Assembly (NCBI GenBank): GCA_937883785.1
Contig: CALGDE010000016.1
Coordinates: 1-54,654, forward strand
DNA length: 54,654 nucleotides
Reading direction: 5' to 3'
Source: an uncultured cyanobacterium
Lineage (GTDB): Bacteria > Cyanobacteriota > Cyanobacteriia > CACIAM-69d
Shown: one piece after another, positions 40,513-54,167 of the stretch
Layout of the letters: the number at the start of each line of letters is the position of its first letter
Position numbering within the stretch: the stretch's first letter is position 1
Notes under the pieces: model-generated
Databases searched by the model: none
Seen by the model: the letters and a program-made list of their open reading frames with translations, nothing else
What the model was told of the DNA's origin: nothing
Position numbers and translations under genes: made by a program

Positions 40513-41259
40513 AAGCCCAATAAAATAAAGGTCTTGTGCCCCAAGCATTATCCTCACCCTAAATTCCACGCTTTACGGATGAAGAGGACTCAAAATATTT
40601 GCAACCCAGACACCTTGTCTGACGCCCCTTTTTCCTGGGAAAAAGCATGTCCCGATCAGAGCTGTGAGGAAGCCGGGGGATTAGGGCTTCCAGCGGCGGT
40701 CACTTATTAGATGGCACTGCCCTAAGGCTCTTGTGCCGTGAAGCATTGACGGCAGGCAAACGAAACAATTCGTTAATATTTCGGCACACCTGTAGGAACC
40801 TCTTTAGGATTGGCACGTCTCTTGTGGAAGAAGAAACTAAGTAGCAGAAATCACATCCTTGCTGATTAGGGAATCTAATCACCACTTAAGAGGTTCAAAT
40901 GTCGCCAGAATCCTTATCTGGCAAGACGTTGCAACACCTTGTTTCAGTAGTGGTTAAGTTATAATCCGCCCAGGCGGAATCTGTTAAGCTCTCCTCGAGA
41001 GTGTCTGCAAGGAAGAGGTGTAGCCTGCTTGATTCTGCTCTCCCCATCTCTGTAGCTTTCACCGTTTCAAAGGTGGATGTTTTGTTTCCCGTTCATTCGT
41101 AGGGAACAGCAAAATTTAAGGCTACAGTGATGGGCAGTAGTTACATCCGATAAACCAAAACCGGTTTAAGACATCGGCACTGGTCACCAATATGACTTCC
41201 GAAAGGAATGGTGAGAGCTCGCTGGTAATTTTCAGACAGTTGATGAGTTGATAAAACCT
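40513..41259. other. Long intergenic region upstream of the giant DUF4347 gene
   Basis: 747 bases with no supported gene. Stable small hairpins: AACGAA-ACAA-TTCGTT near 40759-40774, TCCGCC-CA-GGCGGA at about 40965-40978, and CTCTC-CTC-GAGAG at about 40990-41002. Partial duplications of CTTGTGCC..AAGCATT occur near 40532 and 40730. A 61-codon minus frame (40700-40885) is not convincing. Possibly a long structured 5' leader or an unrecognised small RNA. Confidence 0.4.
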
Positions 41260-44200
41260 ATGGTACAGAACACGGCTCTATTGAAGACTCCTACCGCGAT
41301 CGCAGTAGATCAGGGTAGCTTTTCCGCGCGCCACCTGATTTTCGTTGACGCCAACGTTGACAACCGTCAAAGTTTGCTGGCTAACGTTCCTGCTGGTGCA
41401 GAGGTTGTCGTTCTACAAGACAACGGCATTGGTCAAATTACAAAGGCGATTCAAGCCGAAACTGCGCCCGTTGGCAGCATCCACATTTTCAGTCACGGTA
41501 AGCCTGGTCAATTATTCTTAGGCAATGGCGTCTTAAGTGCAGCCACTCTGTCCCAGGTTGCTCCTCAACTACAAAGCTGGCGCGAGTTCCTAGCCGCCGA
41601 TGCTGACATTCTGTTCTACGGTTGCGAAGTGGCCGCCACCGAAGCCGGTGAGGCGTTCCTAGGTCGCATCCATGAGCTAACTGGCGCAAACATTGCAGCG
41701 TCCAAGACCCTAACCGGTTCCCCCGCTTTGGGTGGAGACGCTGAGCTAGCGTTCCGTTTGGGCGATGTGCGCACTGCCGCCATCAACACCGAGCAGTACG
41801 AGGGTGTGTTGGTTCCTCCCTTCATTACCAGCATTCAGACCTCTGCCGCAGACGGAACCTATGGTCCTGGTGGAACGATTCCCATCACCATTAACTTCAA
41901 CGAGGCTGTTGATATCACCACTGACCTAACGCTGACGTTAGATTCCGGTGGAACGGTTGTTATTCCTGCGGCATCGGTTAATAACAACACCTTTACCCAA
42001 ACCTACACGGTGCCCACTTCAGGCGCAGGTGGAGTAACGATTACTGATGGTATTGACGTTACTGCTGTCACCGGTGCTGTAATTAGTCTGCGGGGTGGTG
42101 GTGCAACAGAGGAAGCAGCAACAACCTTTACAGTGCCGATGGTTGCAGGTACAGACAATATTTCTGGCGATATCAACGTTGATGTCACCACGCCTGTAAT
42201 TGCCACCATCACCACCACGGCGACTAACCCCAGCACTTTGGGTCCTGGCAATCCGATTCCCGTCACCATTACTTTTGATGGTCCCAAGACCTTGGCTGGC
42301 GGCAACTTGGATGTGCTGCTGAATTCTGGCGAAACCATCACGATCGCTCCTTTCACCAACCAAACCTCCGTTTCTGGAACGGTTAACGTTGGCGGAACGG
42401 GTACCGGTACCACCGTTCCTAATCTATCGGTCACCTCTGTGACAGTAGGTGGTGGCGCCACCCTGTCAGATGTGTTCGCCTCCACGACTCTTGCCAACCC
42501 TGTCCTAGCTAACCCGTTGGCTGCTGGGGCGACTGTACCCATCACCACCAATATTCCGACGGGTGTTGGTGTTGATAAGACCGCGCCAGTTGCGCCCTCT
42601 GTTCCTGACCTAGCTGATGCCTCTGACACAGGTCAACTCAACAACGACAACGTTACCAATGACACCACCCCCACCTTCACAGGAACGGCGGAAGCAGGTG
42701 CAACGGTTCAGCTTCGTCTAGGTGGCACCAACATTACTGGTGCAACTGCAGTTGCCGATGCTGGCGGAGCTTGGTCAATCACGGTTCCTACCGCTCTGGC
42801 GCCTGGAGCTGCGTTGGCAATTGATGCGATCGCCACAGACGCTGCGGGGAACGTTAGTACCGATTCGGGTGATTTGGCGGTTAACCTCGACACCACTGCT
42901 CCGCTAGCGCCTGGTGCCCCTGACCTGCAGGTTGGTTCAGACTCGAACGTCAATAATGACAACGTCACCAACGTTGCCAACCCCATCTTTGATGTGACCA
43001 CTAACGTGGTTGCCACTGATACGGTAGAGATTCTTAATGGCGCCACAGTGCTGGGAAGTGTCGTATCCGGTGGTACCACTGCCAACGTAACGGCCACTGG
43101 AATTGCCGAGGGTACTTATTCCGTGACGGCACGGGTTACGGACCTAGCAGGTAACGTAGGTCCTATTGGGACTGCTTTAAACCCTGTTGTAATTGACCGT
43201 ACAGCACCGGTTCCCACGATTACTGTTGCAGCGGGTCAAGCCGATCCCACCAACGTGGCGACCCCCGTCAACTTCACCGTTACCTTCACCGAAGATGTGA
43301 CGGGATTCGATAACGCCGATATTACTGGTGAAGGCTTTACTAACCTGGGCGGCACAGCCGCTGGAGCTGTAACCGGCGGACCCAGCGTATACAACGTTGC
43401 GGTCACTGGCGCCACCGGAACTAACAACAACGCCACTGTAACGGTGGGCACTATCGCAGCAAATGCAGCGATCGACCTGGCAGGAAACAACAGTGCCGCA
43501 TCGGTCAACACCGACAACACTGTTGCTGTTGACAACCAGGCTCCTACGGTTACAGACGTGGCTGTAGCCCCGACCACTGGCACCCTGGGCATTGGCGGTA
43601 CTGCAGCCTTGACAGTGACCTTCGATGAAGCCCCGATTTTGTCGGCAGGCGCCACCCTTTCTCTACCAATCGATCTTGACACCGCCACGGGTGTTAATCC
43701 TCGATTGGTGCCTTTGACGATTGCTGGAACCACCGCAACGGGAACCTACACCGTTGAGGCTGGCGATGTAGAAGATGACTTGAAATCTGCTAATGCCTTG
43801 GTGTTGACCGGCGGGACGCTCCAGGACGCAGCAGGCAATGCTGTCAACCTAGCCCTTGCCACTGGTAATGGTGATGCTGCAGCTCTGGAGAACTCCAGCA
43901 ACACTGTTGTCATTGACGGTACTGCACCTACAGTTACCAACATCGACTCGACTACCGCTGCTGGCACCTTAGCGGTGGGCGGAACTGCCAACATTACGGT
44001 CACCTTCAGCGATGCCGTGACCTTATCCACTGGTGGCAGCTTGACGGCGACCGTTGATGCCTCGTCGACGCCTATCCCTTTGACTGTTGCTGGAACTACT
44101 GCAACGGGAACCTACACCGTAGTGGCTGGCGATTCGAGCCCTGACTTGAACGTTACAGCGTTGAACTTAACTGGCACACTGACTGAAGCCAGTGGTAACG

Positions 44201-46122
44201 CCGTTAGCAACATCGCTACTATCCCCACATCCGGCGCTGGCAGCTTCATTCAAAATGAAGCCATTGTCATTGATGGCGTTGTGCCAGTGCTGAACACCGT
44301 TGTCCCGGGGACGGGTCAGGCAAACCCTGCTGGCGATGGTCCTCTGGTATTCGACGTCACCTTCACCGGGGTGGATCAAGACCTGACAGCGGCATTGCAG
44401 GCAGCAAATGTGGTAGTTCCTGTGGCTCGAACCACCACTACTGGCAGCCCAGCATTTACGTTGCCCACGGTTGGAGTAACAAACGGTGGAGACGCCAACG
44501 ACAATACCTACCAGATCACCTTAACGGGCGGTAACTTAAACGCATTTAGCGGAACTGTAGGGTTGAACTTTGTTAATGCCACCCTAGAGGATGCTGCTGG
44601 TAATGACGCTACGGTTACGGCGTTGACCCCGCCGGTTGCTGGTACTGGTACTGCTGCCACCGAGACGGCGATCGCAGTGGATAACATTGGACCCACCGCA
44701 GTGTCCATCACCCGTAAGGTACCCACCGACGCCATCACCGCAGCGCCCACCGGTGTTGTATTCCAGTTGGTCTTAAGTGAGCCCGCAGCTGGCTTGGCTG
44801 CTGACGACTTTACGGTAGCTGGCACCACTGCAACGGTGACTCAGGTGAGTCCTTTGGATACCATCACGGTCGGTGGCAACACCTTTGCCACCACCTATGA
44901 TGTTGTGGTTTCAGGCGGCGACATTGCCACCGTTGACGGAGCAACCGTTGGTCTAAACTTCTCCGGAACCTCTGCAGTTACCGACGTTCTAGGCACCGCA
45001 TCCACAACTCCGATTGCTGAGCCTGCCACTGATGAAACCTTCACCATTCAGGCAAATGCTGGCGTTGGCGCGTTCCTACCTCCCCCGGCTCCCGCTCCTG
45101 CTCCCCCGCTAGTCCCGACCCCGGTTCCCACCCCGACCCCGACTCCTTCGGTGGCGCCTACCTTGGTGGTTCCTTCCGAGCCCTCTGTACCTAGCCCCTT
45201 GCCCACCTTGATTCCTGGCGCAACGGATGGCAACGACATCCTAGCTGGCGATGCTGGTGCTAACGGTGCTCAAGGTGCTGACGGTGCTGACGACATTGAC
45301 GGCTTCGGCGGCAACGACGTCCTAGAAGGCAACGCTGGCGACGACACCGTTAACGGCGGTATGGGTGACGACTTCGCAGCCGGTAGCCCTGGCGACGACG
45401 TGGTTTCCGGTGACGCTGGTAACGACACCGTGACCGGTAACGAAGGTAACGACATCTTGAACGGCGACGGTTCTGCACCGATGCCTGGTGATGACCTAAT
45501 CTTTGGTGGTGCTGGCAACGACACCGCATTCGGTGGTCAAGGAGCTGACACCATTGCTGGCGGCATCGGCAGCGACCAAGTGTTCGCAGGTCAAGGAGAT
45601 GACCTAGTGTTCGGCGAAGATGGCGACGACTTGCTAAGCGGCGACGTGGGCAACGACACCATCGACGGAGGCGCAGGTAACGACACCTTGATTGGTGACA
45701 GCCTAATCGAAACCTCCGACAGCGCCGACGTGCTAATTGGCGGCACCGGCAACGACCTATTGTTCGGTCAGCGAGGCAACGATAGCCTGTTTGGTGGTGA
45801 CGACAACGACATCCTGCTGGGTGGTCGAGGCGACGATACCCTATTCGGGGACTCTGGCGACGACACTCTCAACGGCAACCTAGGTAGCGACGTGCTCACC
45901 GGTGGCGACGGCGCCGATATCTTCCAAATCGGTCAAGATTCCGTTGTGATTACTGACTTCGTAGACGGTACCGACCGACTACAGGCAGTAAACGGCGTCA
46001 CCGTTGCTAGCTTGAGCTTCGCTGTATCCGGCGGCAACACCGTCATTACCACCACCGGTGGAGTGACCATCGCCACCTTGAACGGCATCACCTCCGGCAT
46101 CGACTCCGCAGACTTCGTATAA
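41260..46122 (+). CDS. Giant DUF4347 - Ig/SwmB-like repeats - RTX calcium-binding protein
   Basis: 1620 residues from ATG 41260 (a TTG 12 bases upstream is also in frame). Residues about 18-185 are a DUF4347 domain (LIFVDANVDN ... IHIFSHGKPGQLFLGNG ... DILFYGCEVA). The middle, about 190-1265, consists of many Ig-like/SwmB-type repeats rich in Thr, Val, Gly and Ala (motifs such as TVTFSDAVTLSTGGSL and AGTTATGTYTV). A Pro-rich linker (about 1270-1320) precedes RTX repeats GGxGNDxxxG (about 1325-1550) that bind calcium in a beta-roll, then a C-terminal DFVDGTDRL...GIDSADFV module typical of type I secretion substrates. No Sec signal; export by a type I ABC system is likely, but none is encoded here. 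Probably a cell-surface or S-layer-like adhesion protein. Confidence 0.88.
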   Translation: MVQNTALLKTPTAIAVDQGSFSARHLIFVDANVDNRQSLLANVPAGAEVVVLQDNGIGQITKAIQAETAPVGSIHIFSHGKPGQLFLGNGVLSAATLSQVAPQLQSWREFLAADADILFYGCEVAATEAGEAFLGRIHELTGANIAASKTLTGSPALGGDAELAFRLGDVRTAAINTEQYEGVLVPPFITSIQTSAADGTYGPGGTIPITINFNEAVDITTDLTLTLDSGGTVVIPAASVNNNTFTQTYTVPTSGAGGVTITDGIDVTAVTGAVISLRGGGATEEAATTFTVPMVAGTDNISGDINVDVTTPVIATITTTATNPSTLGPGNPIPVTITFDGPKTLAGGNLDVLLNSGETITIAPFTNQTSVSGTVNVGGTGTGTTVPNLSVTSVTVGGGATLSDVFASTTLANPVLANPLAAGATVPITTNIPTGVGVDKTAPVAPSVPDLADASDTGQLNNDNVTNDTTPTFTGTAEAGATVQLRLGGTNITGATAVADAGGAWSITVPTALAPGAALAIDAIATDAAGNVSTDSGDLAVNLDTTAPLAPGAPDLQVGSDSNVNNDNVTNVANPIFDVTTNVVATDTVEILNGATVLGSVVSGGTTANVTATGIAEGTYSVTARVTDLAGNVGPIGTALNPVVIDRTAPVPTITVAAGQADPTNVATPVNFTVTFTEDVTGFDNADITGEGFTNLGGTAAGAVTGGPSVYNVAVTGATGTNNNATVTVGTIAANAAIDLAGNNSAASVNTDNTVAVDNQAPTVTDVAVAPTTGTLGIGGTAALTVTFDEAPILSAGATLSLPIDLDTATGVNPRLVPLTIAGTTATGTYTVEAGDVEDDLKSANALVLTGGTLQDAAGNAVNLALATGNGDAAALENSSNTVVIDGTAPTVTNIDSTTAAGTLAVGGTANITVTFSDAVTLSTGGSLTATVDASSTPIPLTVAGTTATGTYTVVAGDSSPDLNVTALNLTGTLTEASGNAVSNIATIPTSGAGSFIQNEAIVIDGVVPVLNTVVPGTGQANPAGDGPLVFDVTFTGVDQDLTAALQAANVVVPVARTTTTGSPAFTLPTVGVTNGGDANDNTYQITLTGGNLNAFSGTVGLNFVNATLEDAAGNDATVTALTPPVAGTGTAATETAIAVDNIGPTAVSITRKVPTDAITAAPTGVVFQLVLSEPAAGLAADDFTVAGTTATVTQVSPLDTITVGGNTFATTYDVVVSGGDIATVDGATVGLNFSGTSAVTDVLGTASTTPIAEPATDETFTIQANAGVGAFLPPPAPAPAPPLVPTPVPTPTPTPSVAPTLVVPSEPSVPSPLPTLIPGATDGNDILAGDAGANGAQGADGADDIDGFGGNDVLEGNAGDDTVNGGMGDDFAAGSPGDDVVSGDAGNDTVTGNEGNDILNGDGSAPMPGDDLIFGGAGNDTAFGGQGADTIAGGIGSDQVFAGQGDDLVFGEDGDDLLSGDVGNDTIDGGAGNDTLIGDSLIETSDSADVLIGGTGNDLLFGQRGNDSLFGGDDNDILLGGRGDDTLFGDSGDDTLNGNLGSDVLTGGDGADIFQIGQDSVVITDFVDGTDRLQAVNGVTVASLSFAVSGGNTVITTTGGVTIATLNGITSGIDSADFV

Positions 46123-46138
46123 GTCGAACAGTGAGTCC

Positions 46139-46176
46139 TTTCAAGGGATCTGGATATTCATTCAGCCCCCTTGAAA
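46139..46176 (+). terminator. Stem-loop after the DUF4347-RTX gene
   Basis: Perfect 9-bp inverted repeat TTTCAAGGG (46139-46147) / CCCTTGAAA (46168-46176), 20-base loop. It lacks a T-run, so termination would be weak. Confidence 0.5.
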
Positions 46177-46231
46177 CGAACTAGGATAGGGGAAAGGAAT
46201 ACTGACCACGAATCCTAATTCGGAAGCTGGA

Positions 46232-47428
46232 ATGCGATCGCTCGCAGAAATCAACGAAAAAATTCGCCAGGGTACCGCAACGGTCTGGACCATCGAGGAA
46301 TTCAAAGCTCGATCCCAACAGACAGCACCGGAAACCCTGGCGAATTTTGTTGATGTGATTACCACGGGCACCTTTGAGCCCATGGAATCATCGGGGGCAA
46401 TTTTAAACTTAGGCCACACAGATCCACCGATTAAAATCCGCCGCTGCTGGCTCGACGGCGTGTCAGCCTATGCCGGATTTGGCGCGGTGGATTTATATTT
46501 GGGCGCCAGCCATGCCGTAGATCCACCCCAAGGGGAAGCGTTGGATGAGCCCCTGCGCGATCGAGGTGGCGGTCATGTTATTGAAGCGTTAATTGCCGGA
46601 AAGCCAATACAGGTGCGCGCCCTGGGACAGGTGACCGATTGCTATCCTTGCCCATCCTTGGAAACGACCATTACCAAGGACACCATCAACCAGTTTTATC
46701 TATTTAACCCGCGCAATCTCTATCAAAATTTTATTGTGGGCGTTAACGGGGGCGATCGCCCGCTGAACACCTACCTGGGTCCTCTACAACCCCAGTTGGG
46801 AAACGCCGTGTACGCCTGTTCCGGCGCACTATCCCCCCTTTTAAACGATCCTCATCTACAGCTAGTGGGCATCGGTACCCGTATTTTCCTCGGGGGCGGT
46901 ATTGGCTATATTTCCTGGGAAGGCACCCAGCATTTTCCCCTCCAGCGGCGGCTACCCAACGATGTGCCCATCGGTCCCGCAGCCACGGTGGCAGCGATCG
47001 GCGATGCGAAGCAAATGAATCCTAAATGGGTGCGAGGGTGCTACTTCAAAGGTTATGGTCCCTCGTTAATGATCGGCGTTGGCTTAGCCCTGCCGGTGCT
47101 GGATAAAACGGTGGCTCAACGATGTGCCGTGCGAGACGAACATATCACTGCGCCCATTATTGATTTTTCCATTCCTCGCCGCGTGCGCCCCACGTTTAAC
47201 TCCGTCAGCTACGCCCAGCTAAAATCGGGAGAAATTTCCATTGAAGGGCGGCGGGTACGTACAGCACCATTAACGAGCATTTTTCTAGCCCGCCAGGTAT
47301 CGGAAGAATTAAAGCGATGGATCGAGGCGGGCAAATTTGAACTGACGGAAGCCGTAGCCTCATTGCCTAGCGATCGCACTTTTATTCCCCAAGATCGCTG
47401 GGGGAGCCAAATTGCCCTGGATCCTTAA
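46232..47428 (+). CDS. Homocysteine biosynthesis protein (DUF39/HcyBio family)
   Basis: 398 residues, full-length DUF39. Methanogen members help make homocysteine by putting sulfide onto aspartate semialdehyde, with two conserved Cys forming a persulfide and an NIL-ferredoxin partner. Here the family stretches NFVDVITTGTFEPMESSGAILNLGHTDPPIKIRRCWLDGV, DCYPCPSLET, GTRIFLGGGIGYISWEGTQH and WVRGCYFKGYGPSLMIGVGLALPVLD are visible with several Cys. A role in sulfur assimilation is thus inferred, and no partner protein lies nearby. The ATG is preceded by the stem-loop region of the upstream gene. The 3' end is only 10 bases from the convergent CHAT gene. Confidence 0.85.
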   Translation: MRSLAEINEKIRQGTATVWTIEEFKARSQQTAPETLANFVDVITTGTFEPMESSGAILNLGHTDPPIKIRRCWLDGVSAYAGFGAVDLYLGASHAVDPPQGEALDEPLRDRGGGHVIEALIAGKPIQVRALGQVTDCYPCPSLETTITKDTINQFYLFNPRNLYQNFIVGVNGGDRPLNTYLGPLQPQLGNAVYACSGALSPLLNDPHLQLVGIGTRIFLGGGIGYISWEGTQHFPLQRRLPNDVPIGPAATVAAIGDAKQMNPKWVRGCYFKGYGPSLMIGVGLALPVLDKTVAQRCAVRDEHITAPIIDFSIPRRVRPTFNSVSYAQLKSGEISIEGRRVRTAPLTSIFLARQVSEELKRWIEAGKFELTEAVASLPSDRTFIPQDRWGSQIALDP

Positions 47429-47438
47429 CGTCGAGCTC

Positions 47439-50400
47439 TTACCAAGGACTCCCCACAGAGGTAAATGCCGACCAGAAATAGGGATGCTGGAAATCCGGAG
47501 CACCGCTATTAACTAGCTCATCCGGTAAGTCGACCGCCCCGAAGCTACCCACCATTTGTCCATTTTCCACCCGCACCTCGCCGCGCATCATCGCCAATTG
47601 AGTTTGGCGTAGCGCCTCCGCCTTAATGGGAGCCTCCCGTAGCTGTTGATAAAACTCCCCCATAAAGCCCAAGGTGCCGCGATCGCTCACGTACCACAAA
47701 CTGGCGATCGCCGTTTTCACCCCCGACGCCACCGCCAGTCCAGCAAAACCCAGTTCTGCGCTGGCATCACCCACTGCCGTTCTGCAAGCACTCAGCACCA
47801 ATAAATCCACTGCCGGTAAATTGAGCTGTAGCTCATCCAGACGATCCAACGTAACCCGCTCCTGCCCCCACAGCTGAATAAAGGACTCTGAAGCCTTACC
47901 CGGTCGAAACTCAGCATGGGTCGCCAAGTGAACAATGGGCGTATCCGCAGTGCTACGGGCAGCTTTCAAAGTGGACGCCGTAAAAGACTCGTTTAAAAAC
48001 GTCTGTCCCGGTCGCCGCTCTTGCGTGACCAACTGCAGTTCCTGGGGCACCGCCGGCAGAGGATTCAAGGAAACAAACTCCGACGCCCCCAGCGCCAATA
48101 CCGGAGCATCTTTAATATTCTGATACTTCGTATTGGTCAGGGATAAGCTCGGCATTAACCCAACGCTAAAGTTTTCAATTACAAATTGCTCCCCATCATG
48201 GAGGGCAGCCAACGGTAACCCTCGCAGTCCCGGTCCTAGAACAAAGGTCAAGTTATCAATCCCCTGTGTTTTCAGCTCCTCGCGCAACGGTTCCACAAAC
48301 CATCCGTATAGCTCTTGGGAAAGTGATAAATATTGGTTGGATTGTCGAAACACTGGGTTCGTCAGCACTTCGCGCAGCTGGTTAACCTTCCGGGTGGCAA
48401 TGCCACGGGTTACTCCTCGCACCGTCACCAGCTTTGGATCTCCATCAGCAGTAACCAGCAATATTTCTAGGGTATCTTCGCTGGATTCCTGAAGCACCGA
48501 AGAACCTTGCGCCACAACCTGGCTCGCGCCAGGATCTAGGTCACCCACCTCATCGCTGCCGACCAGTTGTCCCCCTTCACTCACGCCATCAGCAAGATTT
48601 TCAAGATTTACTTCTGCTGACTTATCCCGGTTTGCTGTGCTGCTGCTGGCAGAGGGGCGGAATTGGGCGTAAATAAGTGCTGGTTTTACCCCCGTTGCGG
48701 TTTCGATATTTTGTAGGAGCGATCGCGCCTCAGGAATGCTCACCTCCGGCTGGGGTTCCACCCCGAGGAACTCAGCAAACTCCACCACCAAAGCCTGTTC
48801 CGTGGCTTGCAAATTTGAATTCGCTGCCGTTTCTGACAACGTTACGGGGGTGAAATCTAAGGGAATATCCAAGGGATCCGTCAAGCCCGCCTCTCGGGGG
48901 CGATCCGCAGAGAGAGAAGGATCACGGTCGATATCCGCTGTAGCTTCAGACTCAGGCTCTTCCAAAGGCTGGTCAACCACCTCTAACACCTCTAATAATT
49001 CCGGTGGCGGTGCCAGGAAGGTGTCAGACTCCACATTGTCCTCGTTCACCTCGTCCACAACTTCATCCAAATCCGTATCTTCATCCAGGTCGTCAATAAC
49101 GTCCGAGGGCACTTCCCCCGCCATCAAAGTGATGTTCCCCTCATCCAAAGGACCAAAGAAATCTTCAGGGGGACTGATGGTTAAATTACCAACAGAAATC
49201 CCGCCAGCGGTGCCGTTAATGCCACCATTACCGACGGAGAAAGGCAACGGCACTGCCGTATCTGATCCACCGTGGGACAGGGACACTTGACCGTCCCCTT
49301 GCCCACCAGAAGCGGAAATACTCACTAACTGTCCGCTGGCGTCGGGAAATGTATTGAGCACCCGCACGAACCGCTGAGACTCAATGTCAACGGTACCTCC
49401 CACGCCAGTGGCGCCACCATCGGCCCTCACCTGATTCAGCACCACATCTCCCAAGGGGTCAATGACGACCGTACCGCCACTACCCAAGGAGCCACTAGCC
49501 TCGATCGCACCGCCAGTAATTCGCGTGCGAGCTTCAACGGTGATTGAACCTCCGCTGGCTCCTGACGCCGCCAAGTCGCCCACCACCACATCTCCCGGCA
49601 ATGTGCCTAACGGAGCGCCAGTGACCAAAGATTCGGGGTCTAGAACCCCTTCCTCGTCAAAAACCAAAGCATTGATGCCAGCCAGGTCTTCAGCCGTGAG
49701 ACCAGCACCGGGAGCCAGGATAGAAATAGTGCCGCCAGGACCATTGGTGCTGGTAACGTTCAGGTTGCCGGTGGCGATCGCACCGCCAGCACTATTCAAC
49801 GAAATGGTACCGCCGCCATCGATACCTTGGGCACTAATATTAGCCGTCGACAAATTTCCCTGGGTGGTAATTTGCACCTGACCGCCCACGCGATTTGAAA
49901 TTGTTTCCCCCTCCCCAGCAGCCGTCACCGCACCGCTAGCATTGATATCGGCAGTGGCAGTGAACGTGGGTGCCGTAAAACTGAGATTTCCCCCTTGAGT
50001 AACAATTGGGTTTGAAACGGTGATGTCACCGGCAGCATCTAGGCTAATGCTGCCGCCTACAGTGTTGAGAGCAGCATTCAATGTCACCGGACCGCCCACG
50101 GTCAAGGTGAGGTTTGTATTTGAAGTGGATAGGGGCTCTATACCAAAACCAACGCTGCCAACGGGAGACTCTCCCCCTACCACCACTCCAGCGCCTAATC
50201 CTTCAAACTCAGCGTTACTAAAGTCCACATTACCAGGGGTGTTAAGAGTCACCCCCGGTTGAGGCGTTTCAGAATCTGACGGGCTAACGGAACCAAACTC
50301 CAAATTACCCACGGTGATCTCGCCACCGGCACGAATGGCGATCGCCCCGCCAATCCCCGACTGGGACTGACTGTTAATGGAGTCGAAGGACACCGACCCT

Positions 50401-52436
50401 CCGCCACCATCCAGCACAACGGCACCACTGTTACCGCCCCCTAAAGCAGCCGTATCGATACCCGACACATTCAGTTCAGTGTTGGCCGTGATGTTGACCG
50501 ATCCCCCCTGACCGCCAACGCTGTTAGTTAAAACCGTGTCCATCTCGACAGCGCCGTCACCTCGAATAAACACCACACCTCCGTCAAAGGTTCCGGCACT
50601 CAGGGTGAGCAGCGTATCCGCAGTAATATCCCCCCCCGTTGCCTCGAGGGTAATTCGTCCTCCGGCGTCTGACTCTGAGCTGGTGTCCAGCAGTCCCGCC
50701 ACCACGTTTCCGGCACTGGATCGCAGAGTAATATCGCCACCAGCTCCCTCCACAGACCCAGTCAACACATCACCCACCGTCACCGACGCCCCAGACACTG
50801 ACACATTTAAATCACTAGCCACGATCGCCTGGTCACGATCCATGGAGAAAGCCCCCACGCCGTTTTGATCCGCGTCAGCAGTGAAGGTCACGGTTTGACT
50901 AACCCCGGTGCTGCTGGGCTCCCCCAAAAACACCAGAGAGACCCCGCTATCAACGGTGATGTTGTTATTCGCCTCCAGGGTGACGTCACCAATAATGGTC
51001 TGTAGCGTGAACTGGGAAATGGAGAGCGTTTCCCCCGCCGCATCCCCAGCAAAGATACTGCCGTCGCTTACCTCGCGATCCCCTACCTGGGTCGTGTCGT
51101 TGGGCGTGCCCGCCACAATTAAAATATTTTCCGGATCAAATAGCACTGACCCAGGGGTGCCGAAAGAAGCCCCCACATCTACCGAGCCTGCCACCTGAAG
51201 GCGATCACGCCCAGAGATTTCCACAAAGCCGCCATCACCGCCGAAGGCACCACCCGTTGCGGCGATCACCCCGTCAAATAGCGTGGCTGACTCGGACCAA
51301 ATCAGCACCTCGCCGCCGTCGCCCGTACCTAAAGCGCTGGCGTCTAGCTTACTAAAGCGATTAACCACCGTTTGCTGAGCCACCGGCAGCGCCGTGCCCC
51401 CAGCCCCTTCGCCACCGATCCAAACGGTGCCGCCTGCAGTCCCCGTAGCCGATACGGTTCCGTCTAAAACTGCCACGCGATCGCCCAAGATCGCCACCTG
51501 TCCGCCGTCAGAGCTGGAGGAACTAACGCTAATGGAGCCCGACGCGATCGCCGTTCCAGCCCCTAAGTCGCCGTCGTCAATTCTGGTTCCCTCGCCCAAA
51601 GTAATCGTCCCGGACGCTGCCACGTCCACCCCCGTCGCAGTGCTTACTTCGCCCCCCGTCAGCAGTTCTGGCAATGTTAACGGCGACGGTAAATCTCTAG
51701 CCAGTGCTGGCGATGCCCCTGGCACAAACTCCAGTCCCAACACCATGCCCGTTGACGCCAATCGTAGCCAGCCACTGTCAGGCACTGCTTCTAATACGAT
51801 ATTTCCCCCTGGCGCAATGAGCTGACCACCATTCAGCACCGCCATACCCAGCAGACTTAGTCCTTGCCCCGGCGCCACCGCTAGCGTACCGAAATTAGCA
51901 ATATTGCCCGACACGCCCTCTTCAAAGTAAAAGCCAGCGATCGCCCCACCGTCCGAGACTAAATCGGAACCCACACCCCAAAGACTTCCCCCATCAAGCG
52001 CCACCGTCGTCGCAGTCGTTGCCGTAAACGCCCCAGGCACATCTAGCCGCGCTCCACTGCCAAAAACCCATCCCGCCGGATTTAGCAAAAACAAGTTGGC
52101 ATCGGAACCGCTCACTTGAATCGTGCCGTTCACGAGAGAAGCTTGCCCCCCGATAACCCGCCCCAGAATATTTTCCAGCGTCGTAGCGCCTACAAACTCT
52201 GCTGTTTGTCCCGTGCCAACCCCAAACTCCGTAAAACTGTGAAACCCATTGGCGCCCGATACCTGCCCCCCGGAAATCACCGCCCGATTGCCTTGCAGTT
52301 CCACAACCGTTCCCGTCCCGTCCTGGGCAGGAACAACGGGAACCTCCGCCGTCGTCGTCTCTGACAACAGCAACCCTAAACCAACGGCGATCGCCCCACC
52401 CGTCGCAGCCCGACTTATAAAACTTAGGTACGTCAC
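47439..52436 (-). CDS. Two-partner-secretion hemagglutinin repeat protein fused to CHAT protease domain
   Basis: 1665 residues, GTG start at 52436 with AGGAG 7 bases upstream. A signal peptide (AATGGAIAVGLGLLLSETTTAEV) and a TPS/FHA N-terminal domain (about 30-170: GTVVELQGNRAVISGGQV, LFLLNPAGWVFGSGARLDV) direct it to a TpsB outer-membrane pore. About 800 residues of Gly/Ser/Thr-rich beta-helix repeats follow (ISVSSSSSDGG ... ITLEATGGDITADTL). An acidic linker leads to a C-terminal CHAT domain (about 1330-1665) with caspase-like His (VHLATHAEF, about 1503) and Cys (VLSACRTAVGD, about 1548), and the typical end QHPYFWSAFTSVGSPW. TPS-CHAT fusions are common in cyanobacteria but of unknown target. 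No TpsB partner is in the window. Confidence 0.88.
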   Translation of the reverse strand: MTYLSFISRAATGGAIAVGLGLLLSETTTAEVPVVPAQDGTGTVVELQGNRAVISGGQVSGANGFHSFTEFGVGTGQTAEFVGATTLENILGRVIGGQASLVNGTIQVSGSDANLFLLNPAGWVFGSGARLDVPGAFTATTATTVALDGGSLWGVGSDLVSDGGAIAGFYFEEGVSGNIANFGTLAVAPGQGLSLLGMAVLNGGQLIAPGGNIVLEAVPDSGWLRLASTGMVLGLEFVPGASPALARDLPSPLTLPELLTGGEVSTATGVDVAASGTITLGEGTRIDDGDLGAGTAIASGSISVSSSSSDGGQVAILGDRVAVLDGTVSATGTAGGTVWIGGEGAGGTALPVAQQTVVNRFSKLDASALGTGDGGEVLIWSESATLFDGVIAATGGAFGGDGGFVEISGRDRLQVAGSVDVGASFGTPGSVLFDPENILIVAGTPNDTTQVGDREVSDGSIFAGDAAGETLSISQFTLQTIIGDVTLEANNNITVDSGVSLVFLGEPSSTGVSQTVTFTADADQNGVGAFSMDRDQAIVASDLNVSVSGASVTVGDVLTGSVEGAGGDITLRSSAGNVVAGLLDTSSESDAGGRITLEATGGDITADTLLTLSAGTFDGGVVFIRGDGAVEMDTVLTNSVGGQGGSVNITANTELNVSGIDTAALGGGNSGAVVLDGGGGSVSFDSINSQSQSGIGGAIAIRAGGEITVGNLEFGSVSPSDSETPQPGVTLNTPGNVDFSNAEFEGLGAGVVVGGESPVGSVGFGIEPLSTSNTNLTLTVGGPVTLNAALNTVGGSISLDAAGDITVSNPIVTQGGNLSFTAPTFTATADINASGAVTAAGEGETISNRVGGQVQITTQGNLSTANISAQGIDGGGTISLNSAGGAIATGNLNVTSTNGPGGTISILAPGAGLTAEDLAGINALVFDEEGVLDPESLVTGAPLGTLPGDVVVGDLAASGASGGSITVEARTRITGGAIEASGSLGSGGTVVIDPLGDVVLNQVRADGGATGVGGTVDIESQRFVRVLNTFPDASGQLVSISASGGQGDGQVSLSHGGSDTAVPLPFSVGNGGINGTAGGISVGNLTISPPEDFFGPLDEGNITLMAGEVPSDVIDDLDEDTDLDEVVDEVNEDNVESDTFLAPPPELLEVLEVVDQPLEEPESEATADIDRDPSLSADRPREAGLTDPLDIPLDFTPVTLSETAANSNLQATEQALVVEFAEFLGVEPQPEVSIPEARSLLQNIETATGVKPALIYAQFRPSASSSTANRDKSAEVNLENLADGVSEGGQLVGSDEVGDLDPGASQVVAQGSSVLQESSEDTLEILLVTADGDPKLVTVRGVTRGIATRKVNQLREVLTNPVFRQSNQYLSLSQELYGWFVEPLREELKTQGIDNLTFVLGPGLRGLPLAALHDGEQFVIENFSVGLMPSLSLTNTKYQNIKDAPVLALGASEFVSLNPLPAVPQELQLVTQERRPGQTFLNESFTASTLKAARSTADTPIVHLATHAEFRPGKASESFIQLWGQERVTLDRLDELQLNLPAVDLLVLSACRTAVGDASAELGFAGLAVASGVKTAIASLWYVSDRGTLGFMGEFYQQLREAPIKAEALRQTQLAMMRGEVRVENGQMVGSFGAVDLPDELVNSGAPDFQHPYFWSAFTSVGSPW

Positions 52437-52760
52437 TTAAAAACTCCTACCCAAACAAGGACTGCATAAACGCCAAATAGATAAACAGTCATCACGCCAG
52501 AGACAATAATTCAACAACCATCAATTCAACAATCATTGAACCGCGCAACCCGACATAACCCACGCTTCAAAATCATCTAGCAGCGTTTTCATTTAACAAA
52601 GCTTGCGTCAAGCTTAATGAACTGTCACCAATCTTCCTGGACATCCAAGAAAATCATAATTAAGCTCAGAAAAAGCATCAGGTTGTTCACTACGCCTCTG
52701 GCTTACACCTAACAACACTGTTCTAAACGATCTATCTCCGGATCGGCTGAAGATTTCCCC
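52437..52760. other. Divergent intergenic region with AAGCTTG palindrome
   Basis: 324 bases between the CHAT gene and the SPOR-like gene. AAGCTTG-CGT-CAAGCTT (52599-52615) is a perfect 7-bp inverted repeat, a candidate operator or hairpin. Direct repeats of TCAACAA/CAATTCAAC lie around 52509-52532. No gene is seen. Confidence 0.45.
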
Positions 52761-54167
52761 ATGACGAAGCCCTTTTTTTTCCATCACCAACAGCTAATCA
52801 ACAAGCAATTAGCTTTCACCAGCAAAGCAATCGGGCTAATCATTGGACTCAGCCTGTTTTCCTCTAGCGCTAGCGCCAGCCCATCTCTACAGTTTGGTCA
52901 GCCGCTACCCGGGAGCCCAGCGCCAGCGGCGTCTGAGCCCGTACCTCAACAACCACCGTCCGCATCTCAGTCCACTGCTGAGTCCTCCCCATCGCGTCGT
53001 TCCACCTCCAGTTCGCAGCGAGAGCGCCCCGCCGCTACCGGAAATCGGCGACGTCGCAACAGCCAGAGTGCCAACACGCAACCTCGTAGAGCTAGAACCA
53101 CCGCTTCATCACAGGTTTCCAGCTTAGGAAGCTCTACGGACAGAAGATCCACAACAGCTCAACGCACCTTTCGTCCCGCCCCATCAGCACCACAAAACGC
53201 AGGGGGTTGGGATGTTCCCCAAGACACTAACGGCGTTTATTTCAGCCCCGAAACCACCAACTTAGATCCCCCCATCTCCAGAGCGGCTAATCGAAATCAA
53301 TCCATATCTCCCGCTCGATCCTTAGTTCAACCAGGTCCTAGGACGACCAACATTTCAGCCCAGCGCTACACCGTGTACGTTTTGGGAGATCAGCTGAGCC
53401 TGCTTGATAAAGTCAGCCAGCTTACACCCAGTGCTGCTTTCACCACCTATAACCAACAGACCGCTGTTAGCGCTGGTTACTTTAATCGTGAGATTGATGC
53501 TCAAGCTCGTGTTCGTGAACTATCTCAGATGGGATTGAGGGGAATCGTTGCACCAGTGGCTCCCACCTCCACAACCCCTATTCCTTCCTCATCATCGGGC
53601 TACTTCGGCGCTCCCGATGGTCCAGTCGATCCCGGAGCAATATTTGACAACTTTGATAACAGCTCCTCTGGGGACAATGCTTACCAAGCCCATGCGATCG
53701 TCAACAGTCTTCCAATCCCTTCCCACGGAACCCGCCCACCAGTTTCGAGAAAACACAAAAACCGTCGCTTACCCCAACCCCCACCGACTTTAGAACAACA
53801 ACAGGTGATCGCTCAGCGAAGTACGACCCCTCTTCCAGCTGTGTCACCGCTTTTTCGGCAAACTTCAAGTCAACAATTAGTCCCCTCAAGTCCTTCTAGC
53901 ATCAACAATCTATCCGCGCCAACTCTCGATGCGGGCGTCTACTACCTCAACCTAGATCCACAGGAACATAGCTACGGCCAGACGATTAGGAAGCTAGCCA
54001 CACTAGGAGTGTCAAGGCAACAAATCTTTCGCACCGACAACATATTCAATGGAATAGTCATAGGTCCATTTACGACATTGTCTGAGGCTAAACAGAGATC
54101 AAGACAGCTCCAAGCTCATCAACTTAAAACCGACATAATCCATAGCGGCTGGGGAAATGGTGGTTAA
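52761..54167 (+). CDS. Secreted protein with two SPOR-like domains
   Basis: 468 residues. A signal peptide (KAIGLIIGLSLFSSSASA) is followed by a long low-complexity Ser/Pro/Arg/Gln-rich region (about 40-195). A first SPOR-like segment (about 200-267: RYTVYVLGDQLSLLDKVSQ ... AGYFNREIDAQARVRELSQMGLRGIVAP) and a second at about 391-462 (GVYYLNLDPQEHSYGQTIRKLATLGVSRQQIF ... GIVIGPFTTLSEAKQRSRQLQAHQLKTDII) match the VxVGPFxxxxxAxxxxxxL pattern. SPOR domains bind denuded peptidoglycan glycans at division sites. Function here is inferred from that pattern only. Confidence 0.7.
   Translation: MTKPFFFHHQQLINKQLAFTSKAIGLIIGLSLFSSSASASPSLQFGQPLPGSPAPAASEPVPQQPPSASQSTAESSPSRRSTSSSQRERPAATGNRRRRNSQSANTQPRRARTTASSQVSSLGSSTDRRSTTAQRTFRPAPSAPQNAGGWDVPQDTNGVYFSPETTNLDPPISRAANRNQSISPARSLVQPGPRTTNISAQRYTVYVLGDQLSLLDKVSQLTPSAAFTTYNQQTAVSAGYFNREIDAQARVRELSQMGLRGIVAPVAPTSTTPIPSSSSGYFGAPDGPVDPGAIFDNFDNSSSGDNAYQAHAIVNSLPIPSHGTRPPVSRKHKNRRLPQPPPTLEQQQVIAQRSTTPLPAVSPLFRQTSSQQLVPSSPSSINNLSAPTLDAGVYYLNLDPQEHSYGQTIRKLATLGVSRQQIFRTDNIFNGIVIGPFTTLSEAKQRSRQLQAHQLKTDIIHSGWGNGG

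Follow-up and report, generated by a model that had tools for sequence, protein, structure and literature searches.

A predicted TpsA-type exoprotein ending in an intact CHAT protease module from an uncultured cyanobacterium, and a possible CHASE2/DUF928 partner system

Results

Architecture of the window gene

The window, by which we mean the entire 54,654-nucleotide stretch of uncultured cyanobacterial DNA that was analysed, carries at 47439-52436 an open reading frame of 1665 residues that starts with GTG and lies on the minus strand, as do all of its features described below. The first-pass annotation had placed an exported-type TPS-CHAT gene at exactly these coordinates without giving a strand. 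The protein begins with a hydrophobic, signal-peptide-like stretch (residues 1-30, 52347..52436; modelled with pLDDT <50) whose hydropathy over 12 residues reaches its maximum of 2.16 at residue 13, the hydrophobic residues being 13-24. This is followed by a TPS secretion domain (residues 29-282, 51591..52352) recognized by Pfam (PF05860, residues 41-226, 8e-29, far above the curated cut-off), by NCBIfam as an NPXG haemagglutinin/adhesin domain (TIGR01901, 1.6e-19) and by Foldseek. Modelled with AlphaFold2 (mean pLDDT 72.6), residues 1-1190 form beta structure throughout until about residue 1055 and are disordered beyond. The best Foldseek matches of this model in the PDB are TpsA proteins: EtpA (8vbb, 2.5e-18), HxuA, HMW1, HlyA and FHA. 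These two methods place a beta-helical stalk at residues 283-1055 (49272..51590), so that the earlier estimate of about 800 residues of beta-helix was a fair one. The stalk leads into an acidic, disordered linker of 135 residues (1056-1190, 48867..49271; pLDDT ~30). Together with the C-terminal module these features support classification of the protein as a TpsA-type exoprotein, with predicted export, that carries an intact CHAT protease module.

The CHAT module is complete and highly constrained

Pfam assigns CHAT (PF12770) to residues 1372-1663 with an E-value of 1.1e-65, again far above the curated cut-off, and finds no TPR domain in the protein. AlphaFold2 modelled residues 1160-1665 with a mean pLDDT of 87. 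Foldseek searches with this model return Csx29/TPR-CHAT as the top match (3e-12), followed by separases, RgpB and caspases, and VIA-align 2 gives Z scores of 28.1 to TPR-CHAT, 24.9 to separase (ctSPD) and 18.4 to RgpB; searching by sequence, we found no related solved structure up to E 0.1. The structural alignments to TPR-CHAT and separase begin at model residues 39-44, so the functional module starts at about residue 1193, well upstream of the boundary drawn by Pfam. It consists of a first alpha/beta lobe N-terminal to that boundary (residues 1193-1276, 48609..48860) and a catalytic domain (residues 1321-1665, 47442..48476) delimited by Pfam, AlphaFold2, Foldseek and structural alignment. 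CHAT is thus a complete two-lobed module of the separase/Craspase type and a putative peptidase.

Both catalytic residues that the first-pass annotation reported are present, His1507 in the motif VHLATHAEF (codon 47916..47918) and Cys1551 in LSACRTAVG (codon 47784..47786). That annotation had made its proposal depend on conservation of the two residues among orthologues, and both are intact in 36/36 TPS-CHAT fusions, three of which have the cysteine in the context LSSC; the complete dyad rules out a degenerate catalytic site. In a comparison with one same-genus homologue, made at dS ~1, dN/dS was lowest in CHAT (0.049), followed by the stalk (0.092), the TPS domain (0.108) and the linker (0.22); CHAT (92% identity to that homologue) is the most constrained part of the protein and the linker the fastest evolving. 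The distance from TPS to CHAT in the fusions ranges from 394 to 2251 residues (median 779): the stalk is free in length and lies between two conserved ends.

TPS-CHAT fusions are widespread in cyanobacteria

The genome from which the window comes has 23 CHAT matches and 11 TPS domains, eight of them fused to CHAT, and matches to the window protein were obtained in 51 of the 59 related genomes, a count that takes in CHAT-only and TPS-only matches. A scan of genome contigs for relatives yielded a single real relative. The idea that the window protein might be unique was rejected on these counts; the TPS-CHAT fusion is an ordinary, widespread cyanobacterial architecture, and the window protein belongs to a large family that is essentially unstudied. 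In the open-licence literature we found nothing on the function of TPS-CHAT proteins, no report of proteolysis by one and no firm proteomic proof of export. The peptide SLSLLGGTVV, which was reported from a water extract of Nostoc and attributed to a "CHAT domain-containing protein" with a weak reported value of 0.012 (PMC9895726), resembles the GQxLSLLGG motif of the TPS domain.

Neighbours at the window locus

The gene order DUF4347-RTX, HcyBio, TPS-CHAT, SPOR (window 41248-54167) is kept in one same-genus genome (L241 and L039, G001) and is absent around the closest same-family homologue (L091). HcyBio, a homocysteine-biosynthesis enzyme gene, lies downstream of TPS-CHAT and convergent to it, separating it from DUF4347-RTX, and in the same-genus comparison is better conserved than either TPS-CHAT or SPOR. 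The suggestion of the first-pass annotation that the SPOR and DUF4347-RTX proteins might be partners or substrates is not borne out by this genus-limited synteny and the intervening gene, and we rejected SPOR, HcyBio and DUF4347-RTX alike as functional partners.

The DUF4347 domain itself (residues 30-184 of the gene at 41248-46122, plus strand) has a caspase-like pattern, IFSHG ... LFYGCEVA, in which the cysteine is kept in 31/31 sequences and the histidine in 28/31. Alignment with hhalign superposes this His and Cys on those of CHAT, yet with a probability of 2%, which is not significant, and DUF4347 was not retained as a remote CHAT relative. One PDB entry, 9qpe, is named DUF4347. In genome G039 two genes (L242:3365-6304 and L243:2906-5548) encode TPS domains followed by DUF4347 where CHAT would be; the DUF4347 histidine is replaced, and the L243 copy contains a run of N.

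TpsB pores are present and mostly unlinked

A TpsB gene next to its TpsA is usual, not obligatory. The first-pass annotation had proposed locating the TpsB gene; the window genome has two ShlB-type homologues, at C167 and C103, neither of which is linked to the window gene, and ShlB was not found on the window contig. In these genomes a TpsA is as a rule an orphan (the same-family genome G002 has four fusions and a single unlinked ShlB); linked ShlB copies occur at L098, L119 and L120. ShlB nevertheless tracks TPS at the level of the genome, being found in 12/12 TPS-bearing genomes and missing from 9/9 genomes without a TPS or TPS-CHAT match (G018 and all eight without a match to the window protein). 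Since TpsB specificity is known to be relaxed in Burkholderia (PMC10449530), it is plausible by analogy that one pore serves many stalks.

A proposed recurrent cassette with ShlB, DUF928 and CHASE2

We tabulated TPS, CHAT, DUF928, ShlB and CHASE2 in 13 mostly complete genomes and compared their distances with random placement, an expectation that ignores gene clustering and shared ancestry. On that basis 9 of 23 TPS-only genes have an unfused CHAT gene no more than 10 kb away (1.15 expected); at the same range DUF928 is found near 7/23 (0.57 expected), CHASE2 near 6/23 (0.73 expected) and ShlB near 4/23 (0.35 expected). Two of the TPS genes share one G026 locus, and the G039 pair among the nine CHAT pairs resembles a broken fusion, so that the independent cases are fewer. 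Fused TPS-CHAT genes are near ShlB in 3/14 cases (0.16 expected) and near CHASE2 in 3/14 (0.41 expected); their proximity to DUF928 is weak (2/14, 0.30 expected).

The linkage takes two forms. Around a fused gene it is seen at L119, where a CHASE2-kinase, a LysM-DUF928 protein, TPS-CHAT (the sole TPS gene of that genome) and ShlB follow one another on one strand, and at L120, where a CHASE2-cyclase, DUF928 and TPS-CHAT are followed by a convergent ShlB. In split form it is seen at L116, at L071 in the window's own genome (DUF928, TPR-CHAT and TPS, with CHASE2 adjoining), at L112 (a single-chain TPS-ShlB, then CHAT and DUF928) and at L117 (TpsA, ShlB, CHAT, DUF928, a CHAT-CHASE2 fusion and DUF1822). 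Like most fused copies, the window gene is an orphan without cassette partners: its locus has no ShlB, DUF928 or CHASE2. CHASE2 and DUF928 occur together more often without TPS than with it, so these two may form a system in which TPS-CHAT is a guest. The ShlB, DUF928 and CHASE2 proteins are better partner candidates than SPOR or DUF4347-RTX, and the four-part CHASE2/DUF928/TPS-CHAT/ShlB cassette appears to be undescribed.

Further genes were noted at these and other TPS loci. The L112 chain (L112:4933-9324, G026) joins TPS, POTRA and ShlB, that is, TpsA and TpsB, in one protein, and L117:15007-17394 encodes CHAT (a weak match) and CHASE2 in one protein next to DUF1822. An NB-ARC-TPR (STAND NTPase) gene lies upstream of TPS-CHAT in two genomes (L075:3838-5799 and L107:112-2658, the latter identified by clustering only), and large hybrid histidine kinases or CheA-like proteins adjoin TPS-CHAT genes at L076:3175-7593, L092:14654-18748 and L104:2519-6931.

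Descent of the fused and neighbouring domains

In the CHAT tree, one group with 97% local support holds 35/36 fused CHATs, all nine CHATs that neighbour TPS-only genes and 21/86 other unfused CHATs. The CHATs adjoining TPS-only genes are thus the nearest kin of the fused ones, with a hypergeometric P of 1.2e-5 that is optimistic because we could see which CHATs were labelled as neighbours when we chose the group in the tree. Short CHATs of about 440 residues nest among the fused ones, some having no TPS partner. The TPS tree places all 36 fused TPS domains in one group with 100% support, fully apart from the unfused domains; this sequence pattern is consistent with one old fusion event, and two independent fusions, a reading first taken from the CHAT tree, were dropped because the TPS tree unites all 36. 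One gene (L121_7; L121:7900-11889, G029) pairs a TPS domain of the fused type with a CHAT of another clade that resembles two flanking CHAT genes, which, given the single TPS group, points to a CHAT swap within the locus.

All eight true neighbour CHATs have a strong N-terminal hydrophobic stretch, as against 26% of background open reading frames, so that location outside the cytoplasm is likely to be the rule in this group of fused and neighbouring CHATs. In the split cassettes CHAT would be exported on its own, as a protein lacking a TPS domain, and it therefore probably works in the periplasm there. The outward-facing arrangement proposed by the first-pass annotation is accordingly a possibility rather than a finding.

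Discussion

The computed architecture and fold, the conserved dyad, the strong constraint on CHAT and the co-location of the parts lead us to favour, if narrowly, a model in which an extracytoplasmic CHAT protease module is coupled to a TpsA stalk and to a CHASE2/DUF928 sensing system. The Sec pathway would carry the TPS-CHAT protein out of the cytoplasm, the TPS domain would dock onto a ShlB-type TpsB, and the beta-helix would fold beyond the outer membrane. The two-lobed cysteine protease, held at the C terminus by a flexible linker, would stay in the envelope, either displayed at the tip of the stalk or kept in the periplasm behind the pore like the prodomain of FhaB; TpsA shafts exit N-terminus first, and their C-terminal parts may remain periplasmic (PMC8263021). 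The 135 disordered residues that precede CHAT would permit either fate. On a signal, CHAT would cut a specific envelope or surface protein. The putative system would comprise the stalk, the protease (fused to the stalk or encoded alongside it), the pore, a periplasmic DUF928 protein and a CHASE2 membrane receptor with kinase or cyclase output; the window copy would be a dispersed member, dependent on a TpsB encoded elsewhere in the genome. A fuller version of this model, in which the separase-like CHAT and its stalk cleave a protein of the envelope (DUF928 and the ectodomain of CHASE2 are conceivable targets) upon an event at the surface, and CHASE2 kinases or cyclases relay this inward as a widespread, undescribed cyanobacterial envelope signalling system, is speculative and rather unlikely to hold in all its parts.

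The main rival is self-processing, in which CHAT serves as a maturation protease whose cut, in its own linker or in a neighbouring TPS protein, sets a beta-helical adhesin free or anchors it. We regard this as possible though doubtful. Bordetella offers a model, as FhaB is processed there by SphB1, CtpA and DegP. The C-terminal prodomain of FhaB stays periplasmic until proteases remove it (PMC8263021). Both the position of the long, least constrained linker, exactly between stalk and CHAT, and the proximity of TPS-only genes to exported-type CHAT genes fit this reading. Constraint on CHAT is, however, the highest in the protein and beyond what would be expected of an enzyme that cleaves itself once, closely related short CHATs exist without any TPS partner, and we identified no cleavage motif in TPS-CHAT.

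A contact-dependent (CdiA-like) or other polymorphic toxin with CHAT as its toxic tip is a weak rival and, to our mind, quite improbable. The layout of TPS domain, long helical stick and C-terminal enzyme is indeed that of CdiA, caspase-like domains have been listed among the C-terminal toxins of polymorphic toxin systems (PMC3482391) and L121_7 looks like a swapped tip, but CHAT is conserved between same-genus genomes rather than polymorphic or hypervariable, stands as a separate gene without a delivery domain at the split loci, and is followed by no immunity gene or other small co-directional gene in the window, where HcyBio is convergent, nor by a small gene that recurs downstream in relatives. 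The silence of the open-licence literature on proteolysis would also suit an ordinary adhesin on which CHAT has a structural or binding role and no proteolytic one; the invariant His and Cys in every fusion and the lowest dN/dS in the protein make this very improbable.

If the fuller, speculative version of the model is true, it would be an extracellular counterpart of the partner-activated cytosolic CHAT systems. CHAT proteases are known as cytosolic enzymes switched by a partner, in CRISPR and other defence systems and also, with HetF, in cell division. Here a large cyanobacterial CHAT group seems to leave the cytoplasm and to be linked with a stalk of the two-partner secretion type, and its recurrent neighbours, a pore, DUF928 and a CHASE2 receptor, suggest a testable pathway. 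The cassette offers the first concrete candidates for the export and control of TPS-CHAT proteins; through it DUF928, many CHASE2 receptors and most of the two-partner secretion proteins in these genomes would gain a function. The interest rests with the family-wide cassette; what the first-pass annotation saw in the window was correct and ordinary in frequency, and it misjudged the neighbours.

Among known systems, the window protein shares with the type Vb TpsA exoproteins (EtpA, HxuA, HMW1, FHA/FhaB) a TPS domain followed by a right-handed beta-helix, but it ends in CHAT rather than in an adhesin cap, a prodomain or a CDI toxin, and has no adjacent TpsB. Csx29/TPR-CHAT of the type III-E Craspase has the same two-lobed CHAT with a His/Cys dyad, aligning over 329 residues with Z 28.1 and rmsd 3.0; it acts in the cytosol, where an RNA-guided effector switches it, whereas the window protein lacks TPR and has a fused export domain. 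Separase shows the same fold of pseudo-lobe and catalytic lobe (Z 24.9 to ctSPD) yet is eukaryotic and intracellular, with 12-13% identity. Gingipain RgpB is likewise an exported cysteine protease of caspase fold (Z 18.4) but belongs to another family and uses type IX secretion in Bacteroidota. A cluster of WD40, CHASE2 and DUF928 has been noted in one Nostoc (PMC5587647), in a passage that mentions no TPS, CHAT or TpsB. HetF of Anabaena is a membrane-associated CHAT protein from the same group of organisms (PMC8406250); its CHAT is N-terminal and accompanied by TM and TPR segments, and it is a divisome component that, unlike the window protein, has neither a TPS domain nor a beta-helix.
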